Below are positions 20,894-21,755 of a DNA stretch of 64,000 bases, in pieces. Source of the stretch: Limnohabitans sp. (GTDB lineage Bacteria; Pseudomonadota; Gammaproteobacteria; Burkholderiales; Burkholderiaceae_C). The stretch lies in contig NZ_JAOASQ010000046.1 in NCBI RefSeq assembly GCF_030158565.1, forward strand, positions 62,001 to 126,000. Reading direction: 5' to 3'. The notes under the pieces were generated by a model, which saw only the letters and a program-made list of their open reading frames with translations, ran no database searches and was not told where the DNA came from. The stretch's first letter is position 1, and each line of letters begins with the position of its first letter. A program made the translations under genes and the position numbers.

Positions 20894-21091
20894 TTAAAAA
20901 TCGCGTTGCTTCGCCAAGCTGACACCCGACCACATCAGCAATCCAACCAGTGCGGAGGCTCTGGCACAAGAGATCAGCACAGGTGATTCAACGATGGGCC
21001 AAAACACAAGACCCTGCAGGAACATCAAGGCACCGGCAGAACGGAAAGCGTCAATCACCTGAGTCCAGTTGACCGCGTATTTGGTTTTCAT
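20894..21091 (-). CDS. Small SOS-box membrane protein, 65 residues
   Basis: The frame from ATG 21091 encodes 65 residues: a polar start (MKTKYAVNWTQ) and two hydrophobic segments at about 20-33 and 38-57, separated by a Pro/Glu turn. It ends in the basic tail AKQRDF. This predicts a small inner-membrane hairpin. A LexA-like box (21127-21146) overlaps a good -10 hexamer TATACT (21128 down to 21123) about 30 bases upstream, so expression on DNA damage is likely. SOS-induced small membrane proteins elsewhere include TisB-type toxins and SidA-type division inhibitors; no homology to these is claimed. No family is recognised. Confidence 0.6.
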   Translation of the reverse strand: MKTKYAVNWTQVIDAFRSAGALMFLQGLVFWPIVESPVLISCARASALVGLLMWSGVSLAKQRDF

Positions 21092-21126
21092 AGTCACGCC
21101 CTGAAATGTGGATGGGGGTGTTAGTA

Positions 21127-21146
21127 TACTGGTGTTTTGTACAGTA
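21127..21146. promoter_or_regulatory. LexA-like SOS box
   Basis: The sequence is TACTG, ten bases (gtgttttgta), then CAGTA. The outer arms equal the E. coli SOS box arms exactly; the inner CTGT-N8-ACAG core has one change (CTGG). It overlaps the -10 hexamer of the minus-strand membrane-protein gene and sits 12 bases before a plus-strand 23-codon frame. Both directions could be controlled by it. Confidence 0.6.
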
Positions 21147-21158
21147 TTTGGTGGCACG

Positions 21159-21230
21159 ATGCCCAAGTCGATCAAGCATTTGCATGCCGCGGTTATGCCC
21201 GCAAATGAGCTACATAAGGTTACGTTTTAA
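21159..21230 (+). CDS. 23-codon ORF next to the SOS box
   Basis: ATG 21159 opens a 23-residue frame (MPKSIKHLHAAV then MPANELHKVTF) ending at TAA 21228. GGTGG lies 4-5 bases before the ATG, and the SOS box is just upstream. It could be a small peptide, or the front end of an SOS gene lost by deletion, or chance. No family is recognised. Confidence 0.2.
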   Translation: MPKSIKHLHAAVMPANELHKVTF

Positions 21231-21308: not shown

Positions 21309-21755
21309 ATGTTCAAAAATACCCTGATCGCTGCTGCTCTGATGGCTGCTTCCCTGGCTACTTTCGCGCAAACCGCTGTTGCACCCGCCGCAGCCACTGC
21401 CACGCAATCCGTGACACAGACCGCCGTCCAAGGCGCCAAGCAAGCTGCAACGCAAGCGGCCACACAAGCTGTGCAAGGCGCCATGCCCGCAGCGTTGAAG
21501 CCAGCCGTTGCCGCACCAGCACCTGCTGCGGCCCCTGCCGCTGCACCTGCAGCGCCAGCCGCTTTTGCACCCGCACCCGCCAAAGCGCCTGCTGCAGCGG
21601 CTTTGCCAGCTGTCAAGAAGTCCGGCAGCAACATTTGCCACGACGAAACCAGCGCTGGCTACAAGTCCACGAAAAACTTCAAACCATTCGCCAGCATGGA
21701 CGAGTGCATCAAGTCCGGTGGCCGCGCACCCAAGGCCGCCAAAGCCAAAAAATAA
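21309..21755 (+). CDS. Secreted Ala/Pro-rich protein with C-terminal Cys motif
   Basis: The 148-residue protein has a signal peptide (FKNTLIAAALMAASLATFA, cleavage about residue 20). A long low-complexity region of Ala, Thr, Gln and Pro follows. A compact end reads ICHDETSAGYKSTKNF then FASMDECIKSGGR. Cys110 and Cys133 are the only cysteines and could pair. I recall similar Cys-His/GY/F/C-GGR tails in uncharacterised proteobacterial proteins; no function is known to me. ATG 21309 has a good AAGGA before it. A strong terminator follows. Confidence 0.7.
   Translation: MFKNTLIAAALMAASLATFAQTAVAPAAATATQSVTQTAVQGAKQAATQAATQAVQGAMPAALKPAVAAPAPAAAPAAAPAAPAAFAPAPAKAPAAAALPAVKKSGSNICHDETSAGYKSTKNFKPFASMDECIKSGGRAPKAAKAKK

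Follow-up and report, generated by a model that had tools for sequence, protein, structure and literature searches.

The stretch of DNA analysed here, which we call the window, is 64,000 nucleotides long (contig NZ_JAOASQ010000046.1, positions 62,001 to 126,000 of the forward strand) and comes from a 3.05 Mb draft genome of Limnohabitans sp., a member of one of the commonest freshwater genera and close to Limnohabitans sp. MMS-10A-192 (L064; 94% protein identity). On its minus strand lies a gene of 65 codons for a predicted small membrane protein, with a LexA-type SOS box set into its promoter, and it is this pairing of box and gene that is considered below. An earlier sequence-only reading had drawn attention to a TACTG-N10-CAGTA box that overlaps the -10 hexamer TATACT of a minus-strand gene for a 65-residue protein, and both elements lie where it placed them:

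20894..21091, minus strand: 65-codon gene, start ATG 21091-21089, encoding a predicted small two-helix membrane protein (from homologues, the ratio of nonsynonymous to synonymous substitution rates (dN/dS) and an AlphaFold2 model)
21099..21104, minus strand: Shine-Dalgarno-like TCAGGG; TCAGG and further purines are found in most homologues
21123..21128, minus strand: TATACT as -10 hexamer, two bases of which fall within the box, with the box occupying the promoter spacer
21127..21146, no strand assigned: LexA-type SOS box, CTGT-N8-CCAG when read on the minus strand (from matrix score, conserved position and an arm shared with the genome's own lexA and recA boxes)

A LexA-type box in the promoter of the small gene

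The box reads TACTGGTGTTTTGTACAGTA on the plus strand and TACTGTACAAAACACCAGTA on the minus strand, where the start codon of the 65-codon frame follows 35 bases past it, and it is the sole exact TACTG-N10-CAGTA in the 64 kb. As a CTGT-N8-CCAG site it has one mismatch against CTGT-N8-ACAG, which is given as the LexA motif in most beta- and gamma-Proteobacteria (PMC3323433). The exact 10-base pattern alone is weak evidence, because the chance expectation, about 0.03 per 64 kb, rises to about 1.5 for the 3.05 Mb genome and the pattern is present there in two places. We scored the window for LexA-like sites with a matrix built on six SOS sites from elsewhere in this genome, the box under test being left out. 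The box scored 18.53, the top of the window, with the runner-up site at 14.80, and none of 60 mononucleotide-shuffled windows reached that value, the highest shuffled score being close at 18.47. The six sites themselves score 18.35-24.69 with this matrix, which is an in-sample range.

A LexA of a suitable kind is present in the same genome. Its lexA, which lies on a different contig from the small gene, encodes the Pfam domains LexA_DNA_bind and Peptidase_S24 and has two boxes upstream, AACTGGTTAAAAATACAGTC and CACTGGATGAAAAAACAGTT; recA is preceded by a CTGT-N8-CCAG box, and similar boxes stand upstream of a Y-family polymerase gene and a radical SAM gene. The CTGG/CCAG arm is common to the box of the small gene and to those of lexA and recA, and is therefore normal in this genome. 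The frame behind another of the genome's boxes is one that we take to be cho-like; Pfam returned nothing for it at an expectation value (E) of 1e-5. The gene splB (spore-photoproduct-lyase-like) is among those for which PMC3323433 predicts LexA regulation in Betaproteobacteria, and our guess is that the boxed radical SAM gene is its equivalent.

The box accompanies the gene into different neighbourhoods

A profile of 11 members recovers the gene from 12 of 90 Limnohabitans genomes, this one and that of the sequenced strain MMS-10A-192 included, at E 1.1e-27 or better; nine of the 12 had already matched with the single protein (E 2.8e-9 or better). Beyond the genus, matches were at chance level only across 399 genomes of the family (a few of them of the genus) and 300 of the order, under partial scoring. 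The sequence-only reading had looked to Comamonadaceae for conservation of the protein and the box: both are kept within Limnohabitans, in a patchy way, and in the genomes searched the conservation does not run through the family. Its refuting condition, a box and protein not kept in relatives, is therefore not borne out as far as the sequences go.

Within 150 bases upstream, the best-scoring box is found at -54 or -55 in all 12 intact homologues, one of which has lost an arm. Eleven score 18.5-27.1, none of them below the weakest of the six SOS boxes of this genome; the one in G351, which lies close to the end of its contig, scores 11.9 and retains only the right arm. When the arms are tested more strictly 10 of the 12 pass, against none of 1009 unrelated frames from the same loci at -54 or -55 and 18 of these anywhere within 150 bases, the frames being all those 60 codons or longer in any of the six reading frames and many of them surely not genes. 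The -10 hexamer is TATACT in nine homologues, while three have TACACT or TAAACT instead; in G300, G304 and G312 (L014, L024 and L118) the site at -55 is joined by another box-like one at -71. It is this conservation of position in the relatives that settles the reality of the box. Judged from the matrix score and the conserved position, which lend strong support to the SOS control proposed in the sequence-only reading, the gene is very probably under LexA control.

The gene copies occupy at least six different neighbourhoods. G000 and G313 share one; G307 has some of the same genes in rearranged order; G369 and G376 each have their own. In G373 and G375 the copy lies with an AMP-binding enzyme and an SRAP (SOS response associated peptidase) gene, while in G351 and G377 another AMP-binding gene is found downstream, with a RelA/SpoT-like gene upstream in G377, at the point where the G351 contig ended. 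G300, G304 and G312 form a further group, in which a YchF GTPase gene adjoins the G312 copy and an outer-membrane efflux gene is found in G304 and G312. No neighbouring gene is conserved across these neighbourhoods, and a scan of ten neighbours revealed no lysis gene. As they remain joined in such different surroundings, box and gene are a unit that travels together.

Three details of individual loci may be added. In G351 (L009:1-190) the missing left arm is replaced by other sequence with an imperfect inverted repeat, which is either a true loss or an assembly fault. Contig 157 of G376 holds a degenerate second copy of the gene (L143:6767-6940, minus strand) with stops inside, which matches the profile at E 8.9e-9 and retains a box at -55 with a score of 21.2. 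The SRAP gene (PF02586; L134:8235-8918, minus strand) adjoins the G373 copy and is convergent with it, and a relative lies beside the G375 copy.

A protein family of predicted membrane hairpins

Members of the family are 65-80 residues long, and seven residues are invariant in the 11 members (M1, K2, W9, R17, G27, G50 and W54). The AlphaFold2 model predicts helices at residues 9-30 and 37-62 (mean predicted local distance difference test (pLDDT) 81.7, predicted template modelling score (pTM) 0.59), in agreement with the two-helix membrane protein that had been proposed from sequence. In the three members for which properties were computed, there are two hydropathy peaks, at residues 18-34 and 38-64 approximately, and positive charge is greater before helix 1 than in the loop; net charge is positive in two of the three. 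Given these peaks and this distribution of charge, it is a fair guess that both ends of the protein lie in the cytoplasm, and the models make an inner-membrane hairpin very likely.

The protein is under purifying selection, with dN/dS of 0.08-0.29 in all 15 pairs among six diverged members (G373, G375, G351, G377, G369 and G376). It is also new to the libraries searched: there was no above-chance match for the family in Pfam, NCBIfam, PHROGs or PADLOC, no match among PDB sequences and no relative in phages or viral contigs, which bears out the earlier impression of a protein belonging to no recognised family. A weak touch of the NCBIfam family 'SidA_fam' by two of the 11 members (best E 0.0021; one bit score of 11.1, far below the cut-off of 60) was rejected; this is a secretion-effector family that has its name in common with Caulobacter SidA and is distinct from it.

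The SulA domain (PF03846) is absent from the Pfam matches of the small protein and of the 11 members. SulA itself was found above the cut-off in none of the 90 Limnohabitans genomes in a search that detected the E. coli control; one sub-threshold match, with stops, occurs in G375 (E 3.1e-4).

A candidate small RNA behind LexA boxes

The promoter pattern CTGT-N8-ACAGTAYACT matches 44 of the 90 Limnohabitans genomes. We examined 30 of its places as loci (L072-L101) together with one in our own genome (L034), the places before the small gene itself (six rows by coordinates) being among the remainder, and all 31 show a separate element:

L034:1500-1600, contig C6 near 65752-65851 (own genome), and L072-L101: small RNA candidate with its own -10 and terminator (from the promoter pattern and a covariance model)

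In the element the box is followed by about 75 bases that carry a GCAGTTGCCTGA core with hardly any variation, a G+C-rich hairpin and a run of T. RNAalifold, given 20 of the 31 sequences, predicts two hairpins besides the operator palindrome, with changes on both sides in 7 of 22 pairs, and Rfam returned nothing above the gathering score for the three loci tested. The covariance model finds the element in 51 of the 90 genomes, a count in which the training rows match by construction; three genomes (G189, G304 and G308) hold two matches each. In a weak first look at 150 genomes of the family the model matched two, G000 and G087, each of which belongs to the genus. Across the box from the element we picked out by eye umuD-like frames in 15 of the 31 places, cho-like frames in 11 and neither in five; a single umuD-like frame was compared with Pfam, and it contains Peptidase_S24. 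Predicted pairing between the element and the mRNA of the hairpin gene is inconsistent, two of five pairs falling below 0.04 and three not.

These features make the element a good candidate LexA-controlled small RNA. A comparison may be drawn with the DinR small RNA of Klebsiella, which is LexA-controlled, made on damage, cut from the end of the dinI mRNA and represses ftsZ (PMC10907235). LexA control would be common to both, whereas the candidate has a box, promoter and terminator of its own.

Discussion

The small membrane protein is very probably a new and uncharacterised part of the DNA-damage response. The box, its place, the family, the selection on it and the lack of a detected SulA are read from the sequences themselves; the mechanism that we infer beyond them, from LexA binding and induction through membrane insertion and topology to the brake itself, would run as follows. 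LexA bound at 21127-21146 would cover the promoter spacer and the -10, keeping the gene off. After DNA damage RecA would trigger LexA cleavage, allowing the production of a short mRNA with a leader of about 25-30 bases, from which the hairpin of 65-80 residues would be made and inserted in the inner membrane, its two ends probably facing the cytoplasm. There it would most likely act as an SOS brake by docking onto a membrane machine, be it the divisome or another, in much the same manner as Caulobacter SidA. We favour such a brake, on division or on another membrane machine, because of the invariant residues, the strong selection and the fact that no SulA was seen. Taken as a whole, this one-gene SOS unit, a LexA-repressed hairpin acting as a brake, seems to us as apt to be right as wrong; its last step, a brake on division or growth through protein contact, is somewhat less likely than not. 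The function of the protein is testable, and we put forward the role of toxin or division inhibitor as a proposal.

Several observations weigh against this interpretation. The AlphaFold2 model is based on 11 sequences, and fold comparison returns many generic hairpins, the two-helix shape resembling many unrelated proteins. Selection is less evident in some comparisons: dN/dS is 0.79 between G000 and G313, which differ by just 7 changes, and reaches 0.83 in some distant pairs near saturation. By eye the window copy has no good -35. The G351 box without its left arm and the degenerate second copy in G376 indicate that the unit may be dispensable and, as it is carried by only 12 of the 90 genomes, the gene is not a general division checkpoint of the genus. 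Finally, the membrane division inhibitors described in the sources cited below have one helix, where two are predicted here.

Known systems provide partial analogues. SidA of Caulobacter crescentus is an SOS-induced division inhibitor of 29 residues that interacts with FtsW (PMC4211646); like the protein predicted here it is a small inner-membrane protein under LexA, whereas ours is 65-80 residues long with two helices predicted, a comparison made by description. SosA of Staphylococcus and YneA of Bacillus are likewise small membrane proteins under LexA that inhibit division, and SosA, with 77 residues, is similar in size; both have a single membrane helix, with a predicted outer C-terminal part in SosA, and are encoded beside lexA (PMC6851548), in contrast to a predicted hairpin whose gene and lexA are on separate contigs. 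In E. coli, TisB and DinQ are also LexA-controlled, small and hydrophobic membrane peptides, but are of 29 and 27 residues with one helix, and are type I toxins paired with antitoxin RNAs (PMC8309996). The hypothetical genes hypA and hypB, for which LexA regulation has been predicted in Betaproteobacteria (PMC3323433), resemble the small gene in being lineage-specific, LexA-boxed and without assigned function; they come from multi-chromosome genomes (Burkholderia, Ralstonia, Cupriavidus and Variovorax) and are compared by description, while in the 300 genomes of the order the profile of the small gene has no match beyond Limnohabitans that is credible. With class II holins the protein has two predicted membrane helices in common, but the searches showed no kinship with phage proteins and the ten neighbours scanned no lysis gene.

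We know of no answer to the question of how Betaproteobacteria that lack SulA halt division when their DNA is damaged. The hairpin gene provides a named candidate for that role, with a conserved operator that makes for a clear prediction, and the small RNA would be unusual as a stand-alone RNA directly under LexA; if true, each would represent an SOS output of a kind new to Betaproteobacteria. That Limnohabitans, in which SulA is undetectable, uses lineage-specific SOS parts of both sorts, a hairpin that either arrests division or depolarises membranes and a stand-alone LexA-controlled small RNA in over half of the genomes searched, is a wider proposition that we consider somewhat unlikely in its entirety. 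Short lineage-specific SOS genes of this kind could be found by asking whether a LexA box moves with a frame between neighbourhoods.

The principal alternative to a brake is a membrane perturber of the TisB and DinQ kind, or a holin-like pore, which would insert, oligomerise and lower the membrane potential, slowing growth and favouring the survival of damaged cells. A small, hydrophobic, LexA-boxed protein, with a net positive charge in two of the three members computed, would suit this role as it suits those LexA-controlled peptides, and two-helix proteins of 65-80 residues resemble class II holins. However, tisB has a long regulated leader, for which the short leader here, with the box at -55, leaves no room, and predicted pairing between the small RNA and the gene's mRNA was inconsistent. 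Nor does the want of any above-chance match in Pfam or PHROGs, of any relative in phages or viral contigs and of a lysis gene among the neighbours scanned favour a holin, while invariant residues such as W9, R17 and W54 suggest a specific partner; we think a perturber unlikely. A further alternative is an accessory role, in which the protein would be an SOS-controlled helper of a membrane or envelope enzyme (a protease, transporter or respiratory complex), adjusting the envelope during repair, and would be neither toxin nor division inhibitor. This too we regard as unlikely, for no neighbour is conserved across neighbourhoods that might hint at the partner and the fold matches are generic.

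The remaining alternative leaves the brake aside and concerns the box, which might serve the other strand, its place before the 65-codon gene being incidental. LexA boxes are palindromic, and on the plus strand, about 160 bases from the box, there begins a gene for an alanine-rich protein with a signal-peptide-like start and no Pfam family above the cut-off (approximately 21309-21755). Closer by lies the short frame that the sequence-only reading had described, correctly, 12 bases beyond the box:

21159..21230, plus strand: 23-codon frame with its ATG at 21159, judged not to be a gene (stop missing in L064; flanking DNA similar in 1 of 10 loci)

We rejected this frame as a gene, and any role for it is unsupported: its stop is absent from the 94%-identical relative, and of the ten loci compared just one, that of the close relative G313, has similar DNA on that side of the box. 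The secreted-protein gene, similarly, was found in one of the 12 homologue loci searched, again G313, so that G000 and G313 are the only genomes in which it adjoins the small gene, whereas the box accompanies the small gene into other neighbourhoods; an incidental placement is thus highly improbable. In G307 and G312 some open frames start within 40 bases on the far side of the box, and these are unrelated in DNA.
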